This document shows positions 3,001-63,463 of a DNA stretch of 64,000 nucleotides, piece after piece. Within the stretch, counting starts at the first letter, position 1; every line of letters starts with the position of its first letter. Below the pieces are notes generated by a model. That model had not been told where the DNA came from. It saw only the letters and a list, made by a program, of their open reading frames with translations, and searched no databases. The position numbers and the translations under genes were made by a program. Origin of the DNA: Branchiostoma lanceolatum (lineage: Eukaryota > Chordata > Leptocardii > Amphioxiformes > Branchiostomatidae); NCBI RefSeq assembly GCF_035083965.1, contig NC_089724.1, positions 25,120,974 through 25,184,973 on the forward strand, in the 5' to 3' direction.

Positions 3001-4624
3001 CCGCAATATTATCTTGTTCGTGGTTACAGAGTTATAGGTGACCAAAGTTGCCCCCCACCCATCCCCATAGTATAAGTATAGGGACATTAAAAAAATCAAT
3101 GTCTGACCAAGAAGTTTCAAACTTTACTTTTAGTTGATAGGGCACCTGGTAGGTCTTTGAAAACTGAAGACCGCAATATTATCTTGTTCATGGTTACAGA
3201 GGTATAGTTGACCAAAGTTGCCCCCCACCCACCCCCATAGTATAAGTATAGGGACATTAAAAAAATCAATGTCTGACCAAGAAGTTTCAAACTTTACTTT
3301 TAGTTGATAGGGCACCTGGTAGGTCTTTGAAAACTGAAGACCGCAATATTATCTTGTTCGTGGTTACAGAGTTATAGGTGACCAAAGTTGACCCCCACCA
3401 ACCCCCATAGTATAAGTATAGGGACATTAAAAAAATCAATGTCTGACCAAGAAGTTTCAAACTTTACTTTTAGTTGATAGGGCACCTGGTAGGTCTTTGA
3501 AAACTGAAGACCGCAATATTATCTTGTTCGTGGTTACAGAGTTATAGGTGACCAAAGTTGCCCCCCACCCACCCCCCATAGTATAAGTTTTGACACATTA
3601 AAAAAATCAATGTCTGACCAAGAAGTTTCAAACTTTACTTTTAGTTGATAGGGCACCTGGTAGGTCTTTGAAAACTGAAGACCGCAATATTATCTTGTTC
3701 ATGGTTACAGAGTTATAGGTGACCAAAGTTGCCCCCCACCCACCCCCATAGTATAAGTATAGGGACATTAAAAAAATCAATGTCTGACCAAGAAGTTTCA
3801 AACTTTACTTTTAGTTGATAGGGCACCTGGTAGGTCTTTGAAAACTGAAGACCGCAATATTATCTTGTTCATGGTTACAGAGTTATAGGTGACCAAAGTT
3901 GCCCCCCACCCACCCCCATAGTATAAGTATAGGGACATTAAAAAAATCAATGTCTGACCAAGAAGTTTCAAACTTTACTTTTAGTTGATAGGGCACCTGG
4001 TAGGTCTTTGAAAACTGAAGACCGCAATATTATCTTGTTCGTGGTTACAGAGTTATAGGTGACCAAAGTTGCCCCCCACCCACCCCCATAGTATAAGTAT
4101 AGGGACATTAAAAAAATCAATGTCTGACCAAGAAGTTTCAAACTTTACTTTTAGTTGATAGGGCACCTGGTAGGTCTTTGAAAACTGAAGACCGCAATAT
4201 TATCTTGTTCGTGGTTACAGAGTTATAGGTGACCAAAGTTGCCCCCCACCCACCACCATAGTATAAGTATAGGGACATTAAAAAAATCAATGTCTGACCA
4301 AGAAGTTTCAAACTTTACTTTTAGTTGATAGGGCACCTGGTAGGTCTTTGAAAACTGAAGACCGCAATATTATCTTGTTCGTGGTTACAGAGTTATAGGT
4401 GACCAAAGTTGCCCCCCACCCACCCCCATAGTATAAGTATAGGGACATTAAAAAAAATCAATGTCTGACCAAGAAGTTTCAAACTTTACTTTTAGTTGAT
4501 AGGGCACCTGGTAGGTCTTTGAAAACTGAAGACCGCAATATTATCTTGTTCATGGTTACAGAGTTATAGGTGACCAAAGTTGCCCCCCACCCACCCCCAT
4601 AGTATAAGTATAGGGACATTAAAC
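1..4624. repeat. Satellite array, ~170 bp monomer
   Basis: Tandem array of about 27 full monomers plus a truncated last copy. The motif TATAGGTGACCAAAG (or a one- or two-base variant) recurs at 1, 166, 336, 506, 676, 846, 1016, 1186, 1356, 1525, 1689, 1859, 2029, 2191, 2361, 2531, 2701, 2863 and so on to 4565. The spacing is almost always 170 bp, with occasional 162-165 bp copies. The array probably continues left of the window. Variants include a TATAGGGACA or TTTTGAGACA segment, TCGTGG or TCATGG, and GTTATAG or GCTATAG. Short antisense reading frames inside it are repeat artefacts. Array homogeneity is high, with most copies differing by only a few bases. Confidence 0.98.
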
Positions 4625-5199
4625 AAGAGCTTTTTAAAAAAGCTGGCGTTTCGGCTACGTTGATAAGTGTGAATTGTCTTTTCCCTTTACTTGAAGTAAA
4701 ATCTGCCAGAGGAAGTCACTCAAGGGCTGTTCAGTCTATAAGAAAAATTGTCATTTTGGGAAATGAGTACTGTTTTAATAGAGAAAGGCAGATTGGGGAA
4801 AGCAATTTTGAAGTTACGTCACTTAACTTAAGTGCTTTTGAAAAAGCTGGTCTTGGCCTACAACTTGTGCTTATTTGTAAAATGTATAATAGGCTCATTA
4901 TAAAAGCTATCAATGTAATTATGTACATGGCACGCAATAAAACATAAAATTTGAAAAAGCACCATTGAATCATCAGCACTATGGTAATTAAGTGAAATAG
5001 AAGTTCATAACAGCTAAGGTTCTATCTAAAATGACTACCAAATGTCAAACAAATTAACAGCTACCTCATCCGTATTATTCTGGTTTCCGCATTTACAACA
5101 TTTCTTCCTTATTTTCCTGGGTAATTTTGCTAAAATTCATGAAAATTCCCATAGTTTTGTGCCGAGGGGCGCCACTTTCCACGTCCGTGTTGTCTGAAT
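4625..5199. other. Unassigned sequence after the satellite
   Basis: No gene recognised. A 95-codon plus-strand frame (4660-4947) overlaps an 82-codon minus frame and resembles no family I know. The segment is moderately AT-rich and lies between the satellite and the left end of the next element. Confidence 0.5.
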
Positions 5200-7000: not shown

Positions 7001-7378
7001 CGTAACAAGTCACTCTGGACGTAATGCTATAACCTCACTATATGGTATCATTTATGCCGATTTTTGGTCGTTTTCTTGACGAAATCATTTTTTTTCTTCT
7101 GCAATCTTGTGGAATAGATGTAATATGGTCATTTTTCAGGATATCAAAGTCCGAAACCACAATGCAATGATATTTCCGAACAGTTGTAGCAGTTACATGC
7201 GGTCGCCGTCCTGTGTCACATGCAAATCTGGCGTGCCTGCCTTTTCCTGCTCTCTTGCCATATAAGGCAACGGCTATACAAGGATTTGAGAACGTATTGC
7301 CATATAAGGTCTTATTGTGTGCGACACAGTGTTGAACCAAGCTTGAAGCATGCATGCTTGAAGGTAAAAGCCAGGACA

Positions 7379-7410
7379 TTGCGTTTCGGTGCGAAGGCAC
7401 CGAAACGCAA
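7379..7410. repeat. Perfect 14-bp hairpin beside a satellite fragment
   Basis: TTGCGTTTCGGTGC (7379-7392), a four-base loop GAAG, then the exact inverse complement (7397-7410). It abuts the orphan satellite piece and may mark the insertion junction. Confidence 0.8.
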
Positions 7411-7496
7411 AAAATCAATGTCTGACCAAGAAGTTTCAAACTTTACTTTTAGTTGATAGGGCACCTGGTAGGTCTTTGAAAACTTAAGACCGCAAA
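7409..7496. repeat. Orphan satellite fragment in the 3' end of the CARD-TIR gene
   Basis: About 88 bp nearly identical to half a monomer of the 1-4624 array, in the same orientation, starting AAAAAATCAATGTCTGACC and ending at GACCGCAA. It lies about 2.8 kb from the array and overlaps the last coding codons and stop of the CARD-TIR gene. Confidence 0.9.
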
Positions 7497-10400
7497 TACT
7501 TCTCAAGCTTCAGGTTTTGTGATTCGAGGGTTTCAATCCTTTCCTGCATGGACTTTTTGTCCTTCTCAAGGTCTTCTACATAATCCTGCTTTTCTTTCAA
7601 TTCATTTGTCATTTGTTCCTTCGTTTTCTGTAGTTGATCCTGCAGTGATTCTCTACTTTCTGACAGATACCTCATCTGCATTGTGACACTGTCGCGTTCA
7701 GCAGCATTTTCACTAGCTTGGTGCTTTGCTATTTCCAGTTTAGCTTTCAGTTGACGTCTTTCTTGAGCACTTTGTTGCAGCAGCTTTGTCATGTCGTCTT
7801 TCCATCCATTGAACATCTCACTACGAGGAGCAGAAGCCAAGTGCAGCGCGTCAAGGCACGTACTGTGGTATGCGTGTGACGTTTCCTTTGGTTTCATGTT
7901 GTACAGCAAGCTTCCAAAGGATGTTGATTGAACCAGACCTGAAATAGCAAGAAGACAATTTCATTCAAATATGTCTTTGTACGTTTTAGACATGGTACAT
8001 TGTGAAGTCTAGATATAAGTACAAGAAAAAATATTCATTAATCTTTTATTTTGTAAAGACTCACACCTTCTCTTTTTCAATATAACAGATAACATTTGCA
8101 ACATAAGCCTTATTTAAGACTCTCAGATAAAATTGAACCTTGTTACCAAAAGCTTGTCCATGCTTTAATCATAAGAAAACTGTAACAATTGGAGAAAGAT
8201 ATTTTCAAATATTCATGTACCTTTCCTGAGTCCGTTCCTGATTGCCTGGTAGTCCCCATGCTCCACATGAATTCTCACTGACAATCGTTCAGAACTTCTT
8301 TCGCCAATGACTGAGGCAAAATGTTTTGATACCAACAATTTTGACAGTTCTATCGACAAACTTCCAGACTCAGTCCTGGAGTATGTGTGGTAGAATTTGT
8401 CAACATCGCTGATCCGAAACAATGACAAGATCAGCAGAAGAGAGCCAATACTGGTTTTCAGTATCACTGCAGAATGCCCAAGAAATGTTCTGAAGACTTG
8501 CCAATACACCTGTGGATCATTTAGGACCGTGGGTGTAAACAATTTCCTTTCTATTTCCGCAATTCTTTCTGCTGCCTCGGGTGTCAAGTCGGGTGAGTTG
8601 ATGATCAGCTCTAGCCTTGCTTTTAGCTCTAGAACCCAAACAAACATCAGCCGTTTAAACTCAAGTGCCACCATTAGGCTGTTGGAGTGTCCTTAGGCAT
8701 CTCTTAATTCAAGAACATAATAGCATTGTCCCGAAACATAATAGAATTGGTTTAGATTACTATAGGATGTCATTAGTAGCACAGTGACTATATACATATA
8801 CCCACGATGTTTATGTACTATTAGTGTAGTACCTTCATCATGGTGTAATTATCAAAGTATGGTCAAGTTGACAAAAGGACAGACGTCAACAGTCGAACGC
8901 ATTCCAACAAGTTTGATATACATTCGATGTGGTATGATGTGGTATGTGTTAGAATGTGGTACTCGGTTTTATAACGCATTTGAATGGTGACAGATATGAC
9001 ATTCCCTGTGATGCGAGCAGTTTGGCGGTGAACTGGTTTATCAAATTTTATGGACAATATTGATTCATAGGCTTTTTAGCTACCCTCATGTACATGTATA
9101 GTATCGTGGCGACTTGAGATTTTTTTTAAACAATAGACTGTGTGCATCAAGCAATGTTGAGTTTATATTCTCTTCAAACTGAATGCTACGTATGCATTCG
9201 ACAAGGTTCAGTGGATTCACCTGGTATAGCCCAAGGGATCTCTGTGTCAGTTCCTACACCGGACATGTCCTCTGTCACATTACCTGAAACTACAACATGT
9301 ATAATTAGTTCGCCAATCAGTGAATGATAGATAGCAACATCGTCTCCTTGCGCGTGTACGTGGAACAACGAACAGCATTTACTTTTCTTAGTTCTTCTGT
9401 CATTAACGACAAAAGTACAAAAATTTAGTATAATGACTATGGCCATGAAACTTTAGGTTTGCCTGAATGTATACAAGGAATACTGTACTTATGCCAGTAG
9501 TAAAACGATACATGTGCAGAACCTTAGAAGTCTGTTTGATCTATGCAAGACTCACAATGTATGCATTCGTCCTTACCTACGAAATGGACATAAATACAAG
9601 TCATCATTTGAATGATAATCTGCCTCACCTTTAGATAAATCTTTGATCTGGCCAAAACCTTCCCTCGATTGCTCACTGGTCTGTCTCTTTCTCTTGGTAC
9701 CTTAAAAGGAAGATATATTTTGCTTCCATTTCATGTTTTATCATAAAATAAAAGGCTAGGTGCTTATTATTTGCCACAACCATTCTTTACATGTAACGTT
9801 AAGTCAATTAACAATTTACCATTATGAGTCTTTTTTTGTCATTGGTAGACCTTGTACTTAGCACTAAACAGGAATAGTAATGAAGATAAAACCGACTGCT
9901 TTACTTACCTGTATGGCACTGATCTGACAGTAGCTGCACAATTTTAATGGCAACATCTGTGATGTCTTCTGCAATGTTGTCATACTGGATACGGTGAGCG
10001 AGGGTCTTCTTCAACATGGGGAAACGACTGCCGACCTTTCTGCTGAAGGCTTCAAAGCTGTCTGTGTTCTGATCCAGCCAAATTGGGTAGAATTTCTTTT
10101 GATGAAACAATGACAGCTCATACTCTAGTCTGGGCCAGTACTTATCGAGAAGGTGATTACTCATTACAATAGTAACCAGCTTTAAACTCTCACTTGCAAG
10201 AGTGGACATTATTTTATCTGAAATGTTCTCTCCTGTGTTGATTGACACCTCATCTAAGAAGATTTCCTCCTCGTGTAGCTTCTGACCCAATAGAGCTTTG
10301 TGAAGCGGTCGGACAAATGACTTCTTGTCCTCACCAGCGTGGATGATGAACAGGCTTGGCCCTTTCCAAAGAAAAAATGTAAAGATTATTACGCTTAAAT

Positions 10401-12081
10401 AAGTAACAAAGCCAAAAAATCCATCGGCATACGCCCTCTGTATGCTCCTCTCCATTAACCTGCATGAAAATTAATGTAACCATGTAACATGTATTTTGGA
10501 AACTTACTTGTATTTTCAACATGTATGTCAAAAATAGAAAATACCTCTTCTGGTGGATAGTTGTATTGGTAAGGAAGCTGGTAGGACGCTGATTTGACTA
10601 CGACTTGTACTTGCAGACGTCATGGCAGCTGGAACAGGTGCAAAGCCTCCGTGTAAGGTTGACCTAGGTTGACCTAAGGTTTGTGATTGATAAACTATTT
10701 CAGATAACAACAAAAATAATAAAGGATAATATGATCATCCATCTCCACCACGTATAGAAAATAAGAATGCTGCTGCATCAGATTTTTCACGGACTGAAAC
10801 TTTTTTACCCTAGCGTTAGACGAACGAGGTCGACCATTTAAGAGCCCCCATTTCATATTGATTTCTAAAGGTTAAGTTTATGAATAAAAAACGACACTTT
10901 CTAATCATACATCATGAAATGCGGATTAAGATACTAGTACAAAGAACATAGTTCAAATGTTACGGAATTAGGTGCAAGGACCTATGTCGATGTTGATTAC
11001 AACCACCCACCCATTCCTGTAGTGGCACAGTTCGGAACAATGCTTTCTGCGTCCGCCATCTTTGTTTGTGTCCGCAAAATGGGCATATTGCCAGAATTTC
11101 ACCTGGGGAGTGGGAAACCTGTCTGGGATTGACCTGGACTGACATTTTGGACCGTATTAAATAGCGGAAAAATATTATGGCCTTCATATGCAGTCCAGCG
11201 GTAGTCTACTGACGATAAGACAAGTAGTCGGTTTGCTAGTTGACAACATATCGTATACTTAAATGTATGATTGAATAGGCTAAGTCATAAAAACGTTAAT
11301 GTCCCACCTCTTCCACGGTGTAATATGGTACCTTAGTATTACACCTTACCCTTCTTCCAATGCAATGTACAATACCGGTAGAGACCGATATTGTTTATAT
11401 CTAGACCGTTGTGAAGTATTTCACGGCACCTGGCACGTAAAAGGGTAACCATTAAGAGACCTTAAAGTGGCCTGAACTTTGACCCTAAGTTTATTGTAAA
11501 GGATTGTTTTATATACATGGTTGTGGACATGACAGCTGGGCTTGTATAAGACTTCAAACATTTTGCCTGTGACTCAGATATCTTTAAATTGTTAAATACA
11601 ACATGTTTACTTTTGACTTAGTTAAGTATAATATGTGTTTACATTAAAAAAAAGGAAACTGACCCCATTTCTCGGAGATTGGCAAAAATTATCATCTATA
11701 AAAGCACAATATAACACCTCAAGCGTATTTGAAGCAAATTGAACGCAATTCTGTCATTCTACAGACCAATTTAAATCCCAATCAGGATGACTTACTTGTA
11801 TCACTTGATTCTTCTTGCAGCATGTCTGCCAGATCAGGATACGTCTCTCGCAGGATTTCACAAAACACGGCAAATGCATTCCGACCTCTGATCTGCAGCA
11901 GTCCGATAAGTTCGTCCGCGCGTTCTTCGTGTGATTCCTTACTATTGATGTCCCGTTCCATGGGCGCAAGCAGAATGCTTCGTTCGATCAGTTGGGGGAT
12001 TACATAGTCCACCCTCAAATCCCGCCTGATATCAGGGAGTCTTCTTTGGAGAATGTCCCGGTGTTTGGACTCCATGGCCAC
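7484..12081 (-). CDS. CARD-TIR protein with unknown helical domain and coiled coil, 642 aa
   Basis: Seven exons: 12081-11796, 10673-10545, 10361-9909, 9700-9629, 9283-9221, 8691-8221 and 7938-7484. All splice sites are GT/AG and every intron is phase 1; the joined frame is 1929 nt. Residues 1-95 are a CARD of the caspase-9/CRADD type (HRDILQRRLPDIRRDL, then RGRNAFAVFCEILRE). 96-138 is a Ser/Thr/Pro linker. 139-289 is a TIR domain: beta-A LFIIHAGED, BB-loop region near DEVSINTGENI, and YWPRLEYELSLF with Glu218 four residues after Trp214, the spacing of the catalytic Glu in NAD-cleaving TIRs. 290-334 is a basic/acidic linker with TKRKR. 335-491 is an alpha-helical domain I do not recognise. About 535-640 is coiled coil. 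CARDs and TIRs are known homotypic assembly modules; an innate immune signalling or cell-death role is inferred. The start is the first of two close ATGs (M-A-M-E). The stop lies in satellite-derived sequence. Confidence 0.85.
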
Positions 12082-28381: not shown

Positions 28382-31300
28382 ATGGTTGGCTTCATGGATC
28401 CAGACCGTGTGTTCAGGGATGTCGTCAGCAGACACGAACCTCTGCTGTGTGAAACCATCAATCCTAGAGAAATGCTGCCTTTTTTCAAGGAAATGCTCAC
28501 AAAACGAGCGGTGGTGAGTCTTAACTTAAAAAACACGATCAATTAGCTTTTTGCCGTTTCTACATAGACGTGACTTTCATGACCGGGGGTGCTACAGACT
28601 TTCATGAACTGGAGGAGGTACAGACTTTCAGCGGGTACAGACTTTCCAAAGTGAACGAGGGGAGGGGCGGCACAAATTTTCATGACCGGGGGGCGCTACA
28701 GACTTTCATGAACGGTGGGGCGGCACAGGCCTTTAGAAATGAGGGTGGTGGAGATTTTCAGGAATCTTCAATCCATTTCTGGGGTCATGTGCACATGGCA
28801 TACGGCGTACATGGTACTTCCAGGCAGCATCTAATGTTATTCTATTTTCATTTCTTTTTGTCTTTTTCAACATTAGGAAGAGATCACGTGCGAGCAAGAA
28901 CAGCGCGGCGAATACATGGCGGTTCCGAAGCTGATGTCGGAGGTGAAGAGAAGGAGAGGCTGGTTTCCTGTGTTCATCCGGGCACTTCTAGCTCTCGGAC
29001 ATGAAGATGTAGCCGATACATTGGACCCCGGACCCAATCACACAGGTAGCACACACCTTCACCTTGACCCATCCTCATCTTGAGGGTCGGGGACTGACTA
29101 TGGTTGCCTTTAGCACCAGCTTCTTCCGCATCATTCTCTGGCTCCGCCCATGCTCTTTGTGCAGTATGCTAGAGACCTGCCAGGTGTTTAGTTCCAGGCT
29201 CTGCCTTTCCTGTTCTGTGAAGGCTGAGCCTGGAACATAACAGGATGGCACTCAGGCTAAGGATATACTCTCCAAGCAGAGGAGGGGTTCCGGCAGGTTT
29301 TTGACGTGTTTCTAACTTTGTCATTTTTTTTGTCTCTTTAAACTCTCTTTTATAGTTTTCTTTTTTTGTAGAAAGCCCGACAAAAACGCCTAAAAACACG
29401 TCAAAAACCTGACGGAACCCCTCCTCTGCTTGGAGAGTAACTAAGGAGAGATGCCTTGTACGTTAATATGTCAAGTAGGGTATGGGATGGACTTTACTAT
29501 TGTTGATATCTAGCATTGTCTGCTCAAATTGTGACATTGTGACTCAGCCCACTGCACAAATTTGAGAAACAAAATGACGGACACGCATACTACTTGACAC
29601 GTGACCAATCAACGCCCTCTTATTGACTGAATGGCTAATTTTGATTGACGGACACATCGGTCTATTATAGCACCTCTTTCCCGCCACAGTTCCCAGACCG
29701 ACTGATGGGGCCACTGCAGGGCCGGCCACACAGAACTCACCGTTTGGGGCGGCTGCAGGACAACCACAAGCATCACAGGTAACACGATACATTCATTTCA
29801 GGGTCTGAAGTTATGAACATGGAGTCGGTGACAGCATGCTTCACCACTTTTAGAATCTAGCAGTAGAAAGAACGGTTTAAAAAGCACGACTTCGCCGTCG
29901 TAGAATGTCTATTGCTGTTATTGAATCTTGTAGTCGGACATTGTTGTCTTTTGGCTTCTCTGATGAGATGAATAGTGCACGTGGTAAATGTGTCAAGCCT
30001 TTTCTTACAATGGGCTCATCCATGCAGAAACTGTATATCTCGACAACACTGTAAAATCAGATTTTCTTTGTCATCAAACTATGGTCTGGCAAACTCACAC
30101 CTCTTAACATTGCTTAATGATAAAGTCATGAATAATACACATTTTCATAAGAAGAATGACCAGTTCCATTTTAAAAAAAGTGTTCTTGCCCCCCCCCCCC
30201 TTAAGAGCCCCGGCACGTCGAGAGAAGAACGCACGGATGGTCAACCCCCACCAGAACCTCGCGTGCCTCACTCCATCCAGGACACACAGCCTCACCAGCG
30301 GCCGGACCACGGACAGGGCACCGTGGTGGTGGAGGAAGAAGATGCAGAGAAGAAAGATGGTGGGGACGACAGAGATGACAAGGATGAAGACATGCCCTCC
30401 CTGGAAGACTGCAGCGTCTCATCAGAAGAACAGCATCATTTCATCAGGAGAAGGGTAGATGACGACCACAGGGCCCCAGGGCGGACGTATGCGGATGCGG
30501 AGGACAAACCGACGGAAGGTACCGAAGACGGCGCTGCAGGGGAAGAGTCGACCGCCTTGTTCGTGGAACCGGCGGGCGATCACCGGGACGAGTCGCCTCA
30601 AGAACCGGGAGCGCTGATAAGGGAAATCCAGGAAGAAAACATGCAAAAGATCAGGGAAAAGGAGGCGCAACTTGAGTCGGTTAAGTCTGAGGTTCAGTCT
30701 GAAGCCGAGAGGGGGCGCTCAGGCACTCCCATTCCATTCTTGATGCAGAAAGAGCACGATGCAAGACAAGCACAGAGTAAGACAGATAAGGAGGAAGACG
30801 AAGGAAGTTCCTGTTCGAGTTTCGAGCTCCCGCCAGGATTTCACGACTCCGTGGAAGACCATTGGAACCTCAGCGAAACAGAATCGCCGCCTCCCAACAA
30901 CGAATTATCTTCCCCGCCAGACAGGCCTGATGAAACGCTCCAAAAGATCGACAACATCACAAGAGCTGAAAGGCAAGGAAAATCTGAGAAGGTACCTCCA
31001 GTCGAAGGAGCAACGGGGGTGGCGTTCATATCAGGAGCTGGCAAGCGGGTGTCTACGGCAACCGTTTGTGACGGGAGAGAAAACGAGCTATCCACGGAGC
31101 CCAAAGAGCCGGTGCAGCCTTCTGACAACGGCGACGGCGTCCACGACGACGGCATGAACGACTACCTGACAAAAGCGCCTCACGCGACTTTGAGCGGAAC
31201 TGTAGCAACAACTGCTCCGAAAGATACCAAAGATGACGCCAGCCCAGCCGATGCCCAACCCACAGATTTACCTACACGTTCAAAAGCATCTACTCCAAAC

Positions 31301-31600
31301 AAACCAAAAGCGCGCGAATCTGCTTCAAAACCCAACCAGGATGGCAAACACCGACCAAGTGACACCTGTCCTCGGAAACCGCCACCACCAACAAGCACAC
31401 CGCAAACCACCAAGCGCCCCCACACCATTCCTGAACGTACTGCAGAAGAAAACAACAGCCAGAACGCCAACAGAGACACCGACCAAAAACCTTCCATGGA
31501 GAAAGATGCGGGCTTTGGAGTGGACAGCGCAACGGTGTTCAGCGTGGCTGGATTTCTACTGGCCGCTGGTGTGGCCATATACAGGATGCGCTTCATGTAA
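28382..31600 (+). CDS. MAVS-like: MAVS-like CARD adaptor with C-terminal membrane anchor, 594 aa
   Basis: Four exons: 28382-28513, 28877-29045, 29690-29778 and 30206-31600, with GT/AG sites and matching phases 0, 1, 0 (1785 nt). Residues 1-100 form an RLR/MAVS-type CARD: REMLPFFKEML, then RGWFPVFIRALLALGHEDVA. 101-570 is hydrophilic, acidic and Pro/Ser/Thr-rich, with a charged helical stretch near 265-300. PVQPSD (432-437) fits the TRAF-binding pattern PxQxxD. The last 26 residues hold a hydrophobic helix (about 572-589) ending YRMRFM, a tail anchor with basic residues as in mitochondrial outer-membrane proteins. Architecture and size match MAVS, the adaptor that RLR CARDs engage; the disordered middle gives little alignment help. 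No pLxIS IRF-docking motif was seen. Exon 4 begins after a C-rich polypyrimidine tract at 30189-30200. The start ATG has A at -3 and G at +4. Confidence 0.85.
28577..28740. repeat. Minisatellite in MAVS-like intron 1
   Basis: About six degenerate ~25-30 bp units around CTACAGACTTTCATGACCGG, giving an open but repetitive frame. Confidence 0.75.
29267..29441. mobile_element. MITE with ~45-bp inverted ends, MAVS-like intron 2
   Basis: TACTCTCCAAGCAGAGGAGG at the left is matched by its inverse complement at the right, and the match continues inward through the CAGGTTTTTGACGTGTTT segment. Related CTCCAAGCAG ends occur at 42882-43032, at the end of the window, and as a lone half near 34430. Confidence 0.85.
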
Positions 31601-37290: not shown

Positions 37291-37777
37291 CGTAGGATGG
37301 TCCGAAAAACGAGCAAATTTCTCTCGTATAGTATATATGTCTAGTCATATGGACAAAATAGAAGCTAGTAATTCGGTTCTTTGCACAGACACTTACATGT
37401 CAAGCCAAACTAAGAACACGACACAAACGCTAGAAATATACTACAGTCCTGCGACCCCCATATATATTTCAAAATAGAACGGTACCAAGTGCTCTCATGA
37501 CCTTAACTTCATCATATAGAATCCTTGGAATGTATCAGACCATCGTTACCTGCCCCTCGCATCGTCAATCAATATCTACATTTCATTTTGGCTGTACAGC
37601 TAAGCTATATCGAGGAATGATCTCTGGCTGTCTGGCGTTGTTGTACGTGACAGTAAAAATGTAAACCAAAACCATTATTTCTATTCGTATGTAGGACGCG
37701 GACAAGCAGAGGTCCGAGGATGGAAGGCCCTTGGCGGTGCCCCCACGGCTGATGACCACCTCTCCAACCCACAAGCC

Positions 37778-39205
37778 ATGGCTACAAAAGATCTGAAGAC
37801 AAACGTCGAAGAGGATGAGCTACCCGGCTGCCTGCCGCCCTTCAGCCCACCGAAGAAGCCAACAGGCCCGCTGTCTGAGGAGGAGGAATTCGAACTGATC
37901 GCGAAATGGCAGGCGGGCGGACTGACGCTGGGCCAACCGAAGTCATCCGCCATCACCGACGTCACCGTCAAGTACAAGTCACGGGAGGATCTGGACACTA
38001 CCGGCTTCGAGACGTACGACGAAGAGACAGGGGAGGAAGACGATGCACTGTACGACCTGTACGCCACGATGGACGACGTCGACCAGACATGCGATCGTCT
38101 TGAAGACGACTTCGCGGCCTTGGCTCCGGCGATGGAAGGGGACCACCATTTCTTCTTCCTCGACGAGGAGGACGAATGTGGTCCAAACTTCGGAGACGAG
38201 GCCGAGGTGGGTGAAGAAGATGACTGGAACCATTACGAGTACCCTACCACCTTGTACCCGTACACGAAAGAAAACGGAGGAGTATGGTACACTACGGAGG
38301 AAGACGGCCACGGGTTCACCTTGGAAGAAGACTCAGACAACTCCGGCTCCTTGGAGAGACAGCAGCGCGTCAGCTCCGGGTATCTCAGTGCCGACCTGTC
38401 CTTCGAGCAGTCTTCTCGGGACGACAGCACTCAGTTCTCCGACAGCATCTACATCCCGAAGGGGTGGGAGAAATTCCCGAGAGAAATCGCGAGGCAGAAG
38501 TTCGACCCGAAGAAGGACCCGGCCCTGCCGAGTCTCAGAGCGCCATCCGTGGTTGAAGAGGAGCCGAGACAGTACCGGAGAGCTCGGTCGGAGAGAGGAA
38601 CGGAGGACCAGTGGGAGGTGTCCCTGGCCGATGAGATTCTGCAGGCTGAGGGGCTTCGCTCCGGCTCTCGCCGTCATCACCGTAGGTCCTCCCGGGAGCA
38701 CCATCGTCCACGCATCCTCGACCTTCGCCGACGTAGCCGCCACGACAGCGGGCCCATCCCCGGGTCCGTCCGGATGCCATCCCTGAGGGATAAGCTGGAG
38801 GAGTACCAGAGGGAGCTGGAAGTGCACCCCCGCCGATCTGAGCCGCAGTCTCGCCGGTCAAGTGTGGCCACCACGATGACGGGGTGGGACGTGACATCGA
38901 CGAGCTACTCGCAGTCACAAGCGGAGACCAGTACGGAGGACGCCTGGGGTGTCAGGCGCAAAAGATCCGCGCACCATCACCACCGCTCCCGGCGGGAGAG
39001 TCACAACGTCTCCGCCGCCACGACCCCCAGGCCATCCCGCCCATCCAGCGGACGTTCTCACACACACCGGCACGGAAAGAACAAGGACAGTGGCCACGAA
39101 TGGAAGGTAGTTTCCATTGTTGGTTGCGTGATCGCAATAGGCGTCCTCATTTACGGCCTATACGGACACGGGAGCACCAAGACCACTGCTATAAGAATGG
39201 AATAA
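37778..39205 (+). CDS. Tail-anchored disordered protein, 475 aa or more, 5' end unresolved
   Basis: One long frame in a GC-rich, codon-biased stretch, far longer than anything in flanking sequence. The N-terminal half is acidic (repeated Glu/Asp, YDLYATMDDVDQ, FFFLDEEDECG); the C-terminal half is basic and Ser/Arg/His-rich. A hydrophobic segment (about 444-462, VVSIVGCVIAIGVLIYGLY) lies 13 residues from the end, so the protein is probably tail-anchored with its bulk in the cytosol. The frame stays open upstream of the ATG to an acceptor AG at 37693-37694 (phase 1), so an upstream exon is likely; the ATG at 37778 may not be the true start. No folded domain is recognised. Layout and position resemble the MAVS-like gene 6 kb upstream, but sequence similarity is not evident. 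It could be a diverged adaptor paralogue or unrelated. Confidence 0.75.
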   Translation: MATKDLKTNVEEDELPGCLPPFSPPKKPTGPLSEEEEFELIAKWQAGGLTLGQPKSSAITDVTVKYKSREDLDTTGFETYDEETGEEDDALYDLYATMDDVDQTCDRLEDDFAALAPAMEGDHHFFFLDEEDECGPNFGDEAEVGEEDDWNHYEYPTTLYPYTKENGGVWYTTEEDGHGFTLEEDSDNSGSLERQQRVSSGYLSADLSFEQSSRDDSTQFSDSIYIPKGWEKFPREIARQKFDPKKDPALPSLRAPSVVEEEPRQYRRARSERGTEDQWEVSLADEILQAEGLRSGSRRHHRRSSREHHRPRILDLRRRSRHDSGPIPGSVRMPSLRDKLEEYQRELEVHPRRSEPQSRRSSVATTMTGWDVTSTSYSQSQAETSTEDAWGVRRKRSAHHHHRSRRESHNVSAATTPRPSRPSSGRSHTHRHGKNKDSGHEWKVVSIVGCVIAIGVLIYGLYGHGSTKTTAIRME

Positions 39206-42026: not shown

Positions 42027-45000
42027 TTACCTATCTCCAGTGGACCCCCCGGCTAACCGGGGAGGTTTGGGAGGAGGCGGGTTTGTAGCGCCAGATCCAC
42101 TCGAGATACTCCCTCTTCCACTTGAGCCGTCGTCAGACGACTCCGACCCTGAGACCTTCCCTCCGCGTTCCCGCGGTCTGGGTAGTTTAGCCGCCGTCTC
42201 TGACGTCTGTTCCGTGCCTGACGACTCCGACCCTGAGGACGTCCCCCTGCCCTGGCGCTTGGCTGGTACCGGCTTCTCCCTTGGTTCTCCTTGTGAGGAT
42301 GATGAGCCGGCGGTCCCCTTGTTGGAGCGAGGGGACGGCACGGGTTTCACGAGGGGGAGGGAGTCGCTGCTACTGGTTGAGTCTGCCCTGGGCTGAACAA
42401 GTCGTCTCTCTGCGGGGACAGGCTTGGGACTGAGCTCAGCTGAACGCTGGTCATCTGACGTAGCGTTGGGTTTGGTAACTTTGATCGCCTTGCCCTGCGA
42501 GAAGTACAGATGCAGCGTTGAAAATCGTTGTACTTGTAAAAGTACACCAGTACGATGGGTCTAATGACCACATAGCAGTGAAATAAACAGAAACACGCTG
42601 AAAAGAACCTATCATTTGCTCAGGGCCAGAGGCATCTGAAGATGGTGAACACTAACAGCATTTCGATTTCAAATATTCAAACGGTTAACCTACAGTTATA
42701 GCAACATTTGAAACTGGGTACAACATGCCATTTTTATCCATCACAATTCACATTTGCATCCATATTTGGCTAGAAATGTTCTTACACAATAACTCCTCAA
42801 GGTTTAACTGTCATTTCAAGGAAGTATGCAACCAAGCTGAGCTCAGCAACTTTACTGAATGACCTTTTAAGGAAGGCTAATGTCTCCAAGCAGATGTTGG
42901 CTCCAACTTGCCTTGCACCACTTTTTATCATGTTTTGTATGTCTTTTTAGTGGAGCATGCATTACTTAGAGGACAAACAAAAACCTGCAAAAGGACATGC
43001 AATACAAGACAAAGCCGACATCTGCTTGGAGATAAGATAACAAATGCTAGAAGCCTACCTGGAAAAGCAGCGCCCATGGCGGCGCCATCATCATTTCTGA
43101 AGTGTTGAAGACTTCATCGCCCGAGCCTCGTGAGCCTAGGGAACTCTGGGATATCCGATCATCCTCACTGGAGAACTCCACTGAGTCTTTGGTGGGTGAG
43201 TCCACAGCTGGGGTTGGGAAAATGGTCACTCTATAAAATTTCCACCACATACATGTGTACAAATGTACATGAATGAAGTGTTGTAAAGGTTTGTCTGTGT
43301 GTGTGCGTGTGTGTGCGTCTTTGTTTCTGATCTGCGTGAAGTGGTGAAGTCTGCCATCTCTCATTGCCTTTAGTACATGTAAAATGTTAATGGTATAAAA
43401 TGTCCCATTATACACTGTTGTGCACCTAGACTATGCGTAAGACAGTAGATATGTCATATATTGTGTTTTACGTAACATACACTTTTAGGTATAGAATGGA
43501 GCGTTTGTAGAGCTTTCAACCAAAGCTTTGGTTTACAATTCAGATATGCTGAGTCAAGCAATTTGTGCAAGGGGTCATTGACATCTAGGTCTGTTACTGT
43601 AAATGCAGAAATGTTTGCAGGGATTTAATTTTGCGGTAGGCAGAAAATGGAGCATTTGTGGTGGTTTTAGGTTCGCGTTTGAAACAATAGTAGCGCTACA
43701 TTCACACAATGGAACAGCTTTTCGCGGTGGTTTTACGTCCGCGGTGAACTCTAAAACCGGGCATAAAACCACCGCAAACATTTCTGCATTTACAGTATGT
43801 TGGGCTGACCTGTAGCACAAACACATGTACTTTAGACTGTCTAAGCTAGAATACATTGTTTATTATACTTACTTAGGTCATCATACAGTGACCCCTTCCT
43901 GAGGAAGGCGGGCAGCTTGCAGGGTGTGGGGACGTGGATGGGCATCATACAGTGGTACGCCTGCTGCCACGCTTCTGTGGACAGAAAGAAAGGGGGCTTT
44001 GTAAATGTCCTCAAGATACTTTCAGCATCTTTCTTTCAAGCTATGCTTTTAGTATGCAAATTATAATATTTTATCAAAAGCATTAAAATACAGTAAAGCT
44101 GGTGTGTTACGCTGAAGGGCAGTTATACCTGCCACACAGATACAGATATATTTGTATGCATATTCAAAAGAAAACCAGGAAATCTTTTCGGATTTACACA
44201 AATCAAGCCCATCAAGGCACTCCTCACTTCCATTGAATATAAAGTCATAAAAAACATATGGGACTGTCACACCATCATTGAAATCTTTCTTTATCTTTAT
44301 CTAACATTTCAAGACAACACAGAAATTTCCACAATCTTCTAGGCTTGGAGGGCTTGATTTTCAATGATAGCACTAACAAAAAAACAAAGAAATAAAGAAA
44401 AAAACTGATTTCCTTCCAACTAGAAGTTTGAAAAGCCAGAAACACTGGTCACCTGCATGAGTGAAGTGTCGCTGTAAGGCCTGTACCCAGGTGTCCCTGT
44501 CCTCCTTGGTGTCTGCAGAGAAGATGTGGGGCTGGTCCTCGCCTGACACTCGCGTGATCACGTCGAAACTGTTGGGTCTCTTCATGGTCATCTTGTCGAC
44601 CTCCTCCACTCTGGTGTCCTGTTGGTGTAAAATGTTGCTGTTTTAAAACACCAAAATTATCTTTTCTTTACAGGAAAAAGATATGTCTTATCCAAGTTTC
44701 TTTTTCAACACTTCTAAATGATAAAATATGTATTCATTTGAGAGATTTGCAATGCTTCAAGTTTCAGTGGTTTGTTTAAAAAAAAAAAAACACAGTAAAA
44801 AACACTTAACAATGAGACTGTAGTCTTACAAGTCAGTGGCCACCATCAGTATTATGTACTACTGCAACATTACATGACTTGAACGTTAACAAATTTCATC
44901 TCAAAATTCGGCTAGTGCCTTATGACCAAGGCCGGTTATATTGGCTATAAAGATCTTCCAATTATAATGTATAATACTATATTTTCAACATAACCTAACA

Positions 45001-48000
45001 ACTTAGACAACTGCAGAAGTTAGTTCTCAACCCTGCAAGTCATTCAAACAGTTTGCTATCCTTACCTGTCTGATGTGTAATGACAGGAGAGGTTCTTTCT
45101 CCTCTATCTCCTCAGGGTAAGCCCAGGTCCTGAGGTAGGGCCCCTTCAGTACACACCACCTCCGTGTCCAGTTAGGAAGGCCACCAACCATCTCCTGCAC
45201 AATCAAAACATTCCATTTTTCATTTTTTACAAACCCTTGAAGCAAACATTCGTAAGAAAACCATCTCACTGCAAACCATGCATCTCACAGCACATGCACC
45301 ACTTGTAGATTGTAGTTTTTAGATTTCCATGACTATTTCAGGCCTAGATGAACTATTTTCCATTGTTAGAAGTTGTTGAAAAGTATGAGTGAAATGCAGT
45401 TATTTGCAAAGCACAGAATTTGCTTCTGATCCTGCTTCTCAGGATTGCAAAAGAGAGGCATCATCAAAAGCAAAATTCTGTGACAGTCACTACATCTATA
45501 CAGGACACTCCAAAACTAAAGTGGACCCTACTAGGATGCCTGCTCTATAGCATCTGAGTAAGACACTGCAAGACACATCATGCAGGAACACTGAATAGTG
45601 GGCCTTTACCTCATTCGGGAGTTCCTTTGCAAAGCAAGGAAGAAGGGAAGAAAAAAAATTCAGTCATTTAACCACATTGTTGATAACCCTTGAGTAGAAA
45701 AATCAATTACACTAAATGTTCTGCATAAGAGAAAATGAATTATTTCAAAAACATTAAATCAGACCTTGTCTATAATAACCTGATGCTTTGGATAGTAATA
45801 TATTTGATCATATACAGCTTTCATCAAATCCAATTTCTAAACGTGCTGCTTTCTAATACATACATGTACCTAACAACAGCATCCTCTATCTAATTTCTGC
45901 TTAGCAGATTGGGTAACAAAACCCAGAGCTTGAGGCATCCTTCAATACAATGATTATACAGTACTCCCCCTCTAAAATCATGTAGTCACACTGGGAAACC
46001 ACACATATCAATGCAAAGCACATCCTAGCAGGTAGAGGAACACCAACAGAGAGGAAAGCTGCAGTACCTGTAAGTTGAGGAAGCCAGCTGCACATTCCTC
46101 CACCATACACCTGGGCTGGACGGCCAGCCGGCAACAAAGATTCCCGTACAGGGAGATGTGGCTACTACTGTCTGCAGGGCACAGGCAAACAGATAGGGGG
46201 CGTCACTGATATGCTAACTGTCAACAACTTGGACACTGCATCATGACATGGTGTGGAATTTTCTTAGTCTTTTTTGTGTGTTTTCTATTGAAAACAAATT
46301 TCCTACACAAGTGCGTGTTTAAGTATCAACACTTCCAAGTTTTCTAAAATCTTAATAGGAGACAAAATGTTCTTCAAACCTTTTCTTCTGTCAATTGTCC
46401 ATGAAAAGCATGCTTGGAACAGAAGCAAAGTCACAATATTGTATACAACAGCAGTGCAGTAGAAAGTGGTGCAAAGAAAGCTGAAAGGCTAAAACTAAAA
46501 GTATGTCCTTCACCAGAAATGAATAGTGGTCATATAGAAGCTAATAAGTACATGATTGTACAGTCAAACCAGGCCAAGAAGACCACTCAAGGGGACCGAT
46601 AAAAATCTGGTCTATGTGGACAGGTGGTCACTATAGATAGGATTTTGAATGTTCGTATCAATGGGAGAAATTATCTAAGGGACCATCAAAAAGGTCACCA
46701 TGGCCAAATGGTCCTTATATAGAACTGGTCACTTGTACCGGTTTGACTGCAGAACTGTGTCTGTGATCAAGAAATATGCATTCTCAAACATGGTATGATG
46801 TTTAAAGTTGTACCATAGAGCCTTACAGTCAACATTCCACATTATAAAGGACTGAGATCTTTCTCCGCAATGCAACAATGTACCCCTAGTACTGATCCTA
46901 ACATGTGACAACCATCCTCAGCAAACAACTTTCTATAACATCATTCTAAAAGTATTGCATCAACAAAGAACAGGAAGGGTCATGTAGCCTTGAGTTTGGC
47001 AAATGTTTTTAACATGAATCTATTTCTTGCTGGACTTGTGCCATCTTGTACTGTAAATCTTGAAATTTTCGCAGTGCTTTTATTAATATGCATTTCCAAT
47101 ACATTAATTATTATACTGTACTACCAAATAGCTTCAACTGAGAATTTCAAACATAGCGAAAACCTTTTTTCTCCTACCACAAAATAAAACCACCATGCAA
47201 GTAAATGAGTTACTGTAAATGCAGAAATATACACGGTGGTTTTACGTTCGCGTTTTTCGCGGTAAACTTTTAGCGCAAACTTAAAACCACCGCAAAACCT
47301 TTTGCCCACCTATGACTGTTACGCTTCTATTGTTTCAAATGCGTACTTAAACACACTCCATTTTCTCCCTACCGCAAAATAAAAACCATGCAAACTTAAA
47401 TGTATTTACAGTATGTAAAATGTAACTGTTGTTGGGGGATCCTAGGAAAACAGAAAGATTGACCAACCTTTAGATCCTACAGTGAGGTCATGTGTTCTAA
47501 TGGAGTCACTGGCATCTCTGAGACTGAGTTCAACACTAGCAGCAAGATGAAACTTGGGACCTCTGAGAAAGGGAAAGGAGACACTATTAGTAACTGTTGC
47601 CGTTACTAAATTGGCTTATCATTGCTCATCGTAACCACGACAGCACAATTTTGATTGTAAAAAAGGTATAAATCTACCCAACTTCTGATTTATGGTACTA
47701 GGTGGAAATTCCTACAGCCAAGTTATTTATACAAACTATTGGAGATGAAAAAAATTGCTTCTTGACATTTGCCAAACAAATGTAACATACTAAAAGATAT
47801 CTATTATGACTTGGGAGTTGCATACATAAGGGTAATTATTTCTACAGCTGCTAATTACTAGTCTAGTGCTTCTACAAAGACGGGAGATGTCAACTTACAT
47901 ATTACAAGGGTTGGATCCTGGGGCGGAGTCTGATCTTTCCTGAAAAGTAAACAGAAAGGAAAACTTTTTCATGTATTCATCACTCAATTTCTATGCTATC

Positions 48001-51000
48001 AAAAGAAACTCTAACATCTCTGACAATGTCCTCAAATTCTAATTGTTCCACTTTACAATGATGAGGCAGATTTAATCCTTTACAACTGTTTGATTCACAA
48101 TTATTCAGAGAAAATTCAATCTCTACAACTGGATACTTCTGAACTTTTCAAGTAACATCCATCACTCTTCTTCAGCATCACTAGAATGAACTGGCAGAAT
48201 GCATCGATACTAAATTTATCAGATTTATTAAGATGCAAGATGGAAAAACTGGTTGAGCATCAGTGCTGTTTCCAGGACCCGTCCTTCCGTCCCGGGACGG
48301 AAATTTGCTTCCTGGGACGGGAAAAAATTCAACCCTGTCTGTCCAAAAAATATCAATTTCATGACCTAAAATTGATGAAAATGTATTTTTGAAAGCTTAG
48401 AATGACAGATTCAACATCGAAAAAAACACAAAAACATGGGCTTCCAAACAATGAGTGGGACGAAAAAAAATCTAAAGCTGGAGACAGCCCTTCTTCAACT
48501 TCAACTTATCAGGCCCCCAGATACATGTAACCCCGCAAAGTAGGGGGGGGGGGGGGGCCTGTTGAGCATGTTTACTTCAAAGATTTTTGACCAAGACTTA
48601 CTAAGTAGGCCTGTACTTTCTTGCCCACGGACTTGCCAATGGAGGCAGACATGCTGTTGATCTTGTGTTTGATCTTCCTGGGTGTGCTGGCGAAGGCCAG
48701 GTCATCCTCCAACACTGTGTAGTACACCTCTACAGCCAGCGAGAAGTCATGCACAACATCCTCACTGGGAAGACAAAACAACAACATAACTTCATATGCA
48801 GGGCTCAAAATTCTTTTTTGGAAATAGGTGCACTTGTGCAACCAACCAAAAAAATTAGGTGCACAGAAAATATTTTGGGTGCACCACATAAAATAAAGTT
48901 GAATGATACCAAAACATAAGTTTGACGCTACAGCCTCTCTTAAGAACTTCAATCTGTAAATCTATCCAGATTTCAAATGTCAACCAAGCAATACACTAAA
49001 CAAAGTACAACAAAATGTTATATTGCTTTTTCTGATACTTACATTTCAAGAATACTCTGTATACTAGTGTACAAGAGAATCATTACTCTATAAGAGTACA
49101 AAAATATCTAGGTGCGCCGGTGCACCCACAATAAAAAATTAGGTGCACAGCTCCAATTTTGGGTGCACACAGGTGCACATGCACCCAGTATTTCGAGCCC
49201 TGCATATGAAAACAGTGTCAGGGTACATAACCAGTATAAAATACAGCAAACAAATTCCTTACGTATTATAACAACTCTCAATGATATTCAAAAGGCTCTG
49301 AGGATGGTACAGTGTGTAACACTGACGTATTGGAGGAATTTATAGCTACTGAAAACAAAATAAGATACATACATTTTTCAGGCTTATGACATGCAGTAAC
49401 ACTATTGATGAATTGAATGCACAAATTTGGGGATTTTGTCATCTCTGAAGATGACATAATATGGACATTTTCATAACATCCACCCACAGGTAACTACTGT
49501 AAAATGCATGTACTTTTGCAGTGGTTTTATTTCACAACAGGAGGGAAAATGTGGTTTTTGCAGGGTTCTAAATTCACAGTTGAAGAATTCTGTGGTACAG
49601 TGGCCATACAAAACACACAATCGAGGTATCATGATTTTGTAGTAAAAGATCGCTGCAAAAATAAAACCACTGCAAACATGATAAGATCGATACAGTAACC
49701 CTCATATGAGAGGGAATCTCCTCATTTTTATTTTTTATTTTAGCAAAAAAAAATTATGAAAACAGAAGGCTGGGGTGAAAACTTGCACCTGACCCTGTTC
49801 TCTCCCTGATACTGTGTGCACCAAAGTAAAAACTTTCCTCTGAGATTCTGTTTTCATGTTGTTTTTCCAACCTAGCATTTTTTTTAAATTCTTTTTTTAA
49901 ATTCTGCTAACCAAGAAAATAGATTGGTGTGTCCTTAGACAAGGATGCATAGGAAGGTGAGACTACTCACAAAACAATGATGTCATCGAAGGTGATGTCT
50001 GTCATGGTCCTGTCGACGTGCACCAGTTGTGTGTCCTGGATGTTGAGTCCCTGCTTCAGCACACAGAACACCGCACACCGACGCCCCTCCCCACGGTTCT
50101 TAGACAGCTCAGGCTCGCGCCACATCAGGGGGATACGAATGTCTGAAACACGCAACAATAAAGACTTGAGTTTTTTCCTAACACCAGATTGTAGGGACTA
50201 CTGCAAATTCATTTATTTTTGCAGGGACTTAATTTTGCAGTAGGAGGGTAAAGGACCTTTCAACGTGGTGTTTCAAGTGTGTGGTTGAAACAAATTCTTT
50301 AGGACAGTAGTAACAAAATGAAAATGCATCTTTGCAGGGTAATAATTCCACAGTGGAGAGGCGACCATGAAAAGAAAACAACCGCAAATATTAAATTACA
50401 GTATCAGGGAGAAACAAATCAAAATATACAGCACTTAACTTTATGCAAAAGTGAGGTTTTCTTGGCGACAACCAAGTTCAAGGAAGATATTCAAATGCAT
50501 AAGATGTAAGTACATAATGAATAGACATGAAACTTTAAAAGAAAAGGGACAGCCGTTGCTTTCTTTTCAAACATTATACCACTTAGTTTTTACCTGAAAC
50601 AGCAACCTTGGCTTTACATGGCTCTTTGGCCTGGTGGCCGTTGGTCGCTTCTGAGTTTTCTTTCCCCATCACCTCTGCTGTTTTACGCCTCTGTAGCTCA
50701 CTCATGTACGCCATCATTCTGCTCGAAACAAAAGGGAAATAACCATTAACACATTATTCCCCAAATAATATGTTAACAAAAAGGACTTGTTGAAATGTTT
50801 GCTGTTGGACAAGTATATAAAATTCTCCCATGTTTTAATAAATGTATTGATATGTACGAAAGTTCCATTTTCTATATTATGAACTTTCCATTTTTTTGTC
50901 AACTGACAATACAGAACAGTTCTCAAGACTTTTCTCAGACCTTTGAAGGGATTAAAGACTTAAGACTATGACGCATGGCATGGGTCACTTAGCAGTCTTA

Positions 51001-52093: not shown

Positions 52094-52855
52094 GGCGCAC
52101 TTTAGACCTACAATGTTATAAGGTCGTACGATCATCGTCGTAGGCGACGGTTTTCTTTAGACACACGGTCAGGAAATATCATGGGACCCCCGCGGCGCAG
52201 AATTCCATTGATGTGCGCGTGTGACTCAAAGTGAACTCTTGCGCTCAAATTCAAAATGGCGGGGGAACCGCTTGTTTTCGTCAAAAGATGAAGCTTTTAC
52301 TGACTTTGCAACAACTGTTGCCCTGCAGATGAGACGTTGAGAACGGTGCTCAACAAAGAAAGAGATTGAGGCTGGTACAGAGACGGACGGGATATAACCC
52401 GAGTTCGTGGCCGCTGCCGGGGATGTCCCGGGGATCGAGGAATAGGGGCATACTAGAGAAGTAGCCACTGGTAGCAGCTCGTCGCGCTGGAATAACCGGT
52501 TTCGGATGAGAAAAATATGTTTCCATTGCTAACTGCATGCATATTTACAAAGAAAACGATAGAAACTTTCCTTCCCGGACAGGAAACAGCACGCTGTAGG
52601 CTTATTAGCATATCACCCACTTCCGTCGCCGGCGACGATTCTTCTTTAGACGAGAAAAACACAGCCACAGGCCCCCCCGCTGAACGTCGTGCGACTGGGT
52701 CCGAGGTGGTCGCACGACATTTCGAGGATTTCCCGTTTATTGCCGTCGTACGATTGTTTCGATCGTCTTTAGACGGCCAAAAAATACCGTCGCCGGCGAC
52801 GTCGCCCACGACGATGATCGCACGACTCTAAAATGTCGTAGGTGTAAAGAGGCCC
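52094..52855. mobile_element. Harbinger-like MITE, copy 1
   Basis: Flanked by TAA on both sides (52091-52093, 52856-52858), as in PIF/Harbinger insertions. Imperfect inverted ends of about 60 bp: GGCGCACTTTAGACCTAC at the left against GGGCCTCTTTACACCTAC on the complement of the right, followed by shared CGATCATCGTCGT. No transposase frame; the 118-codon frame inside is shared with copy 2 and looks non-coding. Confidence 0.85.
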
Positions 52856-62695: not shown

Positions 62696-63463
62696 GGCGC
62701 ACTTTAGACCTACAATGTTATAAGGTCGTACGATCATCGTCGTAAGCGACGGTTTTCTTTAGACACACGGTCAGGAAATATCATGGGACCCCCGCGGCGC
62801 AGAATTCCATTGATGTGCGCGTGTGACTCAAAGTGAACTCTTGCGCTCAAATTCAAAATGGCGGGGGAACCGCTTGTTTTCGTCAAAAGATGAAGCTTTT
62901 ACTGACTTTGCAACAACTGTTGCCCTGCAGATGAGACGTTGAGAACGGTGCTCAACAAAGAAAGAGATTGAGGCTGGTACAGAGACGGACGGGATTTAAC
63001 CCGAGTTCGTGGCCGCCGCCGTGGATGTCCCGGGGATCGAGGAATAGGGGCATACTAGAGAAGTAGCCACTGGTAGCAGGGCGTCGCGCCGGAATACTAG
63101 TAACCGGTTTCGGACGAGAAAAATATGTTTCCATTGCTAACTGCATGCATATTTACAAAGAAAACGATAGAAACTTTCCTTCCCAGACAGGAAACAGCAC
63201 GCTGTAGGCTTATTAGCATATCACCCACTTCCGTCGCCGGCGACGATTCTTCTTTAGACGAGAAAAACACAGCCACAGGCCCCCCCGCTGAACGTCGTGC
63301 GACTGGGTCCGAGGTGGTCGCACGACATTTCGAGGATTTCCCGTTTATTGCCGTCGTACGATTGTTTTGATCGTCTTCAGACGGCCAAAAAATACCGTCG
63401 CCGGCGACGTCGCCCACGACGATGATCGCACGACTCTAAAATGTCGTAGGTGTAAAGAGGCCC
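62696..63463. mobile_element. Harbinger-like MITE, copy 2
   Basis: Nearly identical to 52094-52855 in the same orientation, with TAA duplications at 62693-62695 and 63464-63466. It differs by a few substitutions and small indels such as an extra CTAGTA before ACCGGTTTCGG. Confidence 0.9.

Follow-up and report, generated by a model that had tools for sequence, protein, structure and literature searches.

A lancelet gene beside a RIG-I-type receptor gene joins an Apaf-1/caspase-9-class CARD to a bacterial-type TIR domain

What would a protein that couples a CARD to a TIR domain do, and with which partner, when its gene lies beside that of a RIG-I-like receptor (RLR)? The question is raised by a locus on contig NC_089724.1 of the lancelet Branchiostoma lanceolatum, within a stretch of 64,000 nucleotides (positions 25,120,974 to 25,184,973; hereafter, the window). 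A preliminary description, drawn from the letters of the window, had proposed a CARD fused to a SARM1-type TIR that depletes nicotinamide adenine dinucleotide (NAD+) and might be recruited by the neighbouring receptor or adaptor. We find that the animal gene is genuine, that its domain combination is unusual and its location notable, and that it is a variant on CARD-effector and TIR-effector designs. Our preferred reading, to which we give a probability of about one half, is that a CARD of the Apaf-1/caspase-9 class is joined to a bacterial-type TIR predicted from sequence to cleave NAD+ after the CARD, as is likely, gathers copies. The observations behind it are the exon structure, the class of the CARD, a TIR of bacterial type in which Trp and Glu are kept, and a predicted TIR fold nearest to that of AbTir.

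The CARD and TIR placed earlier at 9909..12081 are encoded by two genuine minus-strand exons of compatible phase, but the gene runs 1.7 kb beyond that interval, to 8213, and includes a third domain. A database search with an initial gene model returned six proteins from 996 candidates, and the top one, P0001 (B. lanceolatum, 470 aa; 'uncharacterized protein', isoform X2), is the letter-for-letter translation of six genomic exons with GT/AG borders. This exact match bears out the proposed fusion, as do the Pfam matches to CARD (PF00619, E = 5.1e-11) and TIR_2 (PF13676, E = 2.5e-7), both above cut-off. The six exons, each matching P0001 exactly, and a possible seventh are as follows.

Exon 1: 12075-11796, minus strand, start codon at 12075 and the entire CARD (P0001 residues 1-93).
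Exon 2: 10673-10545, minus strand, linker between CARD and TIR.
Exon 3: 10361-9909, minus strand, the entire TIR domain, flanked by phase-1 introns.
Exon 4: 9700-9629, minus strand, linker.
Exon 5: 9283-9221, minus strand, linker.
Exon 6: 8628-8213, minus strand, C-terminal domain resembling TRADD-N, and the stop codon that ends the 470-aa form.
Possible exon 7: 7938-7484, minus strand, coiled coil; open and in frame between an acceptor (TTTCAG) and a TAA stop codon.

Exon 6 first appeared out of frame and was considered as a separate gene; this was ruled out, and the exon assigned to the CARD-TIR gene, because P0001 is matched exactly with the inner acceptor at 8628. Use of the optional exon 7 with a shortened exon 6 would make a 619-aa coiled-coil form, which is absent from every database record retrieved. 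Three minus-strand frames (1270-1500, 3130-3348 and 7312-7509) have the peptide FSKTYQVPYQLKVKFETSWSDIDF in common, and a fourth minus-strand frame, 4479-4715, has a different stretch in common with frame 1270-1500. These frames represent a repeat dispersed in the window, and one of its copies runs into the end of exon 7. The phase-1 introns on both sides of the TIR exon would suit a shuffled domain, since exon shuffling in lancelets is biased to 1-1 exons (PMC4284660; this and the other sources given by PMC number are cited from excerpts).

A match to TIR_2 gives no TIR type, because nearly every TIR clade matches that profile (PMC13142454). Against PF01582, the profile for the TIR of Toll, IL-1R and MyD88, P0001 scored 16.3 bits, below the cut-off of 21.3; its paralogues P0003 and P0004 pass PF13676 and also PF01582 (21.8 and 23.8 bits). 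When the TIR alone was compared with the PDB, TcpB/BtpA, AbTir, PdTIR, 7uxr and 9m0n were matched at E <0.01, and the sole animal TIR listed was IL1RAPL1, at E = 0.48 and spanning 25 residues. A profile of nine TIR sequences matched BtpA/TcpB, AbTir and PdTIR at about 1e-15, followed by 7uxr, 9m0n and plant Roq1 (0.0018). None of the 15 PDB matches listed for this profile at E<=10 is a TLR, IL-1R, MyD88 or SARM1 chain, although the PDB does contain such chains. Among models of defence proteins the TIR matched PDC-S66 (1.5e-14) and ThsB1 (6.4e-6), and its predicted fold is nearest to that of AbTir bound to an NAD analogue. NAD+ activity has been reported for AbTir (PMC11374754) and BtpA (PMC7188309); that of PdTIR is taken here from its automatic protein name alone. 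Two relatives are likewise named automatically, P0004 as 'NAD(+) hydrolase PdTIR-like' and P0008 as 'putative 2' cyclic ADP-D-ribose synthase TcpB', labels that are not evidence of activity.

The ranking of the whole domain supports a place among enzymatic bacterial TIRs, not with Toll/MyD88. The earlier assignment to the SARM1 type gives way to a bacterial type: SARM1 chains are missing from the listed matches, and where group-24 TIRs such as SARM1 have the BB-loop E-(R/K)-L-E-A-G (PMC7075850), the lancelet TIR reads, by eye, LDEVSINTGE. The same type of TIR occurs with ankyrin repeats in place of the CARD in P0006 (B. lanceolatum, 351 aa), and has therefore been joined to other domains too in lancelets. 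A tblastn search with 19 protein queries (E<=0.01) detected no further TIR genes in the window.

The TIR exon encodes both short motifs singled out in the preliminary description (LFIIHAGED and WPRLE); of the first, FIIHAGED spans P0001 residues 141-148. The residues numbered Trp214 and Glu218 in that description are likewise kept, although their numbers are two lower in the database model (Trp212 and Glu216). They form the WxxxE motif within a predicted alpha-C helix (W75 and E79 in a helix spanning model residues 74-85). We aligned 18 TIRs, comprising 12 lancelet-type rows (10 from lancelets, plus P0007 and P0009) and 6 bacterial-type rows (2 from named bacteria). Trp and Glu are invariant in all 18, and W, E and D in all 12 lancelet-type rows. 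Glu216 aligns with AbTir E208 and Trp212 with AbTir W204, so the NADase-type glutamate proposed earlier is retained. Mutagenesis of AbTir identified eight positions at which mutation inhibits NADase activity (PMC11374754); four are identical in the lancelet TIR (R151, D167, W204 and E208), two are replaced conservatively (V193 by Ile, Y238 by Phe) and two are lost. All but two of the 12 lancelet-type rows, and two of the six bacterial-type rows, have Arg at the R151 position.

Other observations weigh against an active enzyme or weaken the case for one. The full set of residues required in AbTir is not kept: Ile143 stands at the S140 position and a 4-residue gap takes in R215, and these two losses are the chief evidence from sequence against activity. 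Nor is the Trp-to-Glu spacing diagnostic, as had been supposed; it is weak evidence because the Glu is common among TIRs overall (>70%) and among TLR1/2/6/10 (>90%), though not in MyD88 and TIRAP (<10%; PMC7075850). The N-terminal strand, which had been thought to look enzymatic, does not share in the support from the whole domain: most lancelet-type rows (10 of 12) have Ile where FISH has Ser, the exceptions being P0009 (Ser) and P0012 (Cys), whereas all six bacterial-type rows have Ser. In a scan of bacterial genomes with a pattern that admitted Ile or Ser only at the FI-x-H position, 35 stretches fitted and 15 were confirmed; all 15 of these, when read, had Ser. A single Amoebophilaceae bin, SS36425bin_2, accounts for six of the 15 loci (L004, L007, L009, L010, L011 and L012), suggesting that TIRs have expanded in this lineage; L012 has in-frame stops.

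The loss of S140 and R215 would suit a non-enzymatic adaptor, in which a TIR with the fold and the Glu acts as a scaffold linking CARD complexes to other TIR proteins. So would the frequency of the Glu in TIRs without known activity, for example TLR1/2/6/10 (PMC7075850), and the many TIR domain combinations found in lancelets (PMC2575513). We nevertheless consider this explanation doubtful, given that the nearest relatives in sequence are enzymes from bacteria and not adaptors, that Trp, Glu and Asp do not vary among the 12 lancelet-type TIRs, and that the TIR is better conserved than the CARD.

The CARD profile matched Apaf-1, RAIDD, caspase-9 and CED-3 in the PDB, and by profile and fold the nearest solved CARDs are of the Apaf-1/caspase-9/RAIDD class. 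In an AlphaFold2 model, residues 11-90 form a block with a predicted local distance difference test score (pLDDT) of 88-96, and the exon 2 linker (residues 95-134) has pLDDT <50. Judged by sequence, the P0001 CARD is of the Apaf-1/caspase-9 class. An RLR/MAVS-type class for it was rejected on z-scores and PDB profile matches, which does not thereby reject a role for RLR or MAVS as partner.

Such a role was proposed in the preliminary description, and adjacency to an RLR gene is confirmed. The two neighbours concerned are as follows.

RIG-I-type RLR gene: 25092-13606, minus strand, two CARDs, helicase exons and a RIG-I C-terminal domain; start at 25092 placed by eye.
MAVS/IPS1-like gene: 28382-31600, plus strand, a CARD across two exons and a hydrophobic C-terminal tail; start at 28382 placed by eye.

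From right to left the order is MAVS-like (plus), RIG-I-type RLR (minus) and CARD-TIR (minus), the last starting 1.5 kb downstream of the RLR coding end on the same strand. In the RLR gene both CARD exons match PF16739, further matches are to DEAD, Helicase_C and RIG-I_C-RD, and the hand-joined CARD pair matches RIG-I at 2e-12. The MAVS-like gene, which is divergent from the RLR gene, matches PF16739 at 7.4e-9 (second CARD exon) and has the C-terminal sequence VFSVAGFLLAAGVAIY; its hand-joined CARD matches RIG-I (1e-4), MDA5 (0.009) and MAVS (0.15).

This arrangement invites the explanation that the CARD is recruited to CARD filaments of the neighbouring RLR or MAVS, and that NAD+ loss would then be set off by viral RNA. 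The linkage is already known in outline, because in B. floridae 'Three possible toll-like receptors' with CARDs have been placed within 100 kb of RIG-I, MDA5, LGP2 and IPS1, and all CARDs of that cluster were called homologous (PMC4565553). The contigs of the close relatives P0002 and P0008 (34.2 and 34.4 Mb) resemble in length that of P0001 (34.4 Mb), which hints that linkage to the RLR cluster was kept. Some paralogues also count for this explanation and against ours: five of six family CARDs match PF16739 (the RLR/MAVS CARD) at E<=0.01, the best at 8e-7, P0012 is database-tagged with that family, and the CARDs of P0003 and P0012 have weak similarity to RLR CARD2 (z 4.2 and 3.6). However, P0001 itself scores only 20.3 bits against PF16739 (25.1 for the CARD alone), under the cut-off of 28.2, and its CARD gives z of 1.2, 0.1 and 1.8 against RLR CARD1, RLR CARD2 and the MAVS CARD, which among themselves give 8.8-13.0. 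Moreover, the CARD-TIR paralogues P0003, P0004 and P0012 lie on contigs of different length (22.2, 21.8 and 18.8 Mb), and the excerpt of PMC4565553 mentions no CARD-TIR binding test. Because the CARD belongs with those of Apaf-1 and caspase-9 and does not significantly resemble the window's RLR and MAVS CARDs, recruitment by these neighbours is without sequence support. We conclude that RLR coupling of this protein is possible but unlikely, and that the P0001 CARD does not argue for it.

A third explanation, that the main product is a cyclic ADP-ribose isomer acting as messenger with little NAD+ depletion, is distinctly improbable, and we know of no animal receptor for such isomers. Trp212 does align with AbTir W204, required for production of 2' cyclic ADP-ribose (PMC11374754, citing Manik et al.), and P0008 bears the name of such a synthase, but TcpC, which makes linear ADP-ribose, has the Trp too (PMC11374754).

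The C-terminal domain has relatives within the family. The P0001 C-terminus is locally similar to those of P0003 (z 8.8) and P0005 (z 8.4; 0 of 500 shuffles each), and these two approach PF20694, TRADD-like_N (E = 0.0011 and 0.0016, under the 23.7 cut-off), which P0001 itself does not match. When assessed for an RRM-like fold, residues 389-467 have alternating predicted strands and helices, in a block whose pLDDT is just 44-58. No PDB sequence matched the domain at E<=10, and matches to solved structures (VIA list) cover P0001 well only at residues 1-90 and 135-285. TRADD-N expansions are known in lancelets (PMC8195603). P0005 (B. belcheri, 574 aa) continues from CARD-TIR and a TRADD-N-like region into a helix-loop-helix DNA-binding domain (PF00010, 1.3e-12), and is possibly a fused gene model.

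For the preferred reading, a CARD that gathers a predicted NAD+-cleaving TIR, we infer an activity, a trigger, a partner and an outcome as follows. The CARD would dock on an oligomeric CARD platform or self-assemble; an Apaf-1-like NB-ARC protein of the expanded lancelet family is proposed as the most likely platform because the CARD belongs to the Apaf-1/caspase-9 class. Crowded TIRs would then associate and complete the active site around Glu216, NAD+ cleavage would yield ADP-ribose or an isomer of its cyclic form, and the loss of NAD+ or the product may lead to cell death or an immune signal. The TIR would, in effect, occupy the place of the caspase-9 protease, and recruitment or restraint of the complex is the probable role of the TRADD-N-like domain. 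To us the simplest reading is that the CARD crowds a bacterial-type TIR. Enzymatic TIRs require self-association and the Glu (PMC10022894), and the lancelet expansion of Apaf-1-like proteins includes DNA-binding members (PMC11747288).

Comparison with known systems sets this protein apart from each. It resembles bacterial TIRs of the AbTir/PdTIR/BtpA type in top sequence and fold matches, in the Trp-x3-Glu spacing and in the R151 and D167 equivalents, but its TIR stands behind a CARD in an animal, has Ile for Ser140 and lacks the R215 stretch. SARM1, with the architecture ARM-SAM-SAM-TIR, likewise joins an oligomerising helical domain to a TIR with Glu at the catalytic position; the lancelet protein, however, has a CARD and a TRADD-N-like domain, and no SAM or ARM was found among its Pfam matches at E<=5, which are CARD and TIR only. 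Caspase-9 of the Apaf-1 apoptosome shares the CARD class and the order of N-terminal CARD and then effector, whereas in the lancelet protein a TIR serves as effector in place of the caspase. The genes of the B. floridae cluster were called receptors, with no NAD+ chemistry proposed in the excerpt of PMC4565553, and their CARDs were called homologous, whereas the P0001 CARD is nearer another class. Other lancelet proteins in greatly expanded families combine TRADD-N with death-fold domains and effectors, although the excerpt of PMC8195603 describes DED-TRADD-N-WD40 rather than CARD-TIR-TRADD-N.

Elsewhere in the window, a 533-aa open frame at 37604-39205 (plus strand) adjoins the MAVS-like gene; it has a C-terminal hydrophobic stretch with a short tail and no Pfam match above cut-off, and could be a second tail-anchored protein. 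Minus-strand frames at 44373-48961 with PH and anillin-homology domains (PF00169, 9.9e-8; PF08174, 1.5e-9) are probably an unrelated anillin-like gene. Near-identical minus-strand open frames at 52453-52827 and 63097-63435 represent a repeat in at least two copies.

A title and abstract search of the open-licence PMC literature found no report of a lancelet or CARD-TIR NADase, and a 2020 survey gave SARM1 as the only animal TIR with known NADase activity (PMC7075850). We tentatively suggest, as a speculative extension, a lancelet 'TIR apoptosome', in which Apaf-1-like CARD platforms would take on a CARD-TIR NADase, either in place of a caspase or alongside one, and pathogen sensing would kill by NAD+ loss. 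If true, this would be a SARM1-independent animal NADase death pathway, derived from an exon-shuffled bacterial-type TIR and encoded in an RLR-MAVS cluster. It would mean that animals too have wired NAD+-cleaving TIRs to death-fold platforms, much as bacteria and plants have wired them to defence receptors.
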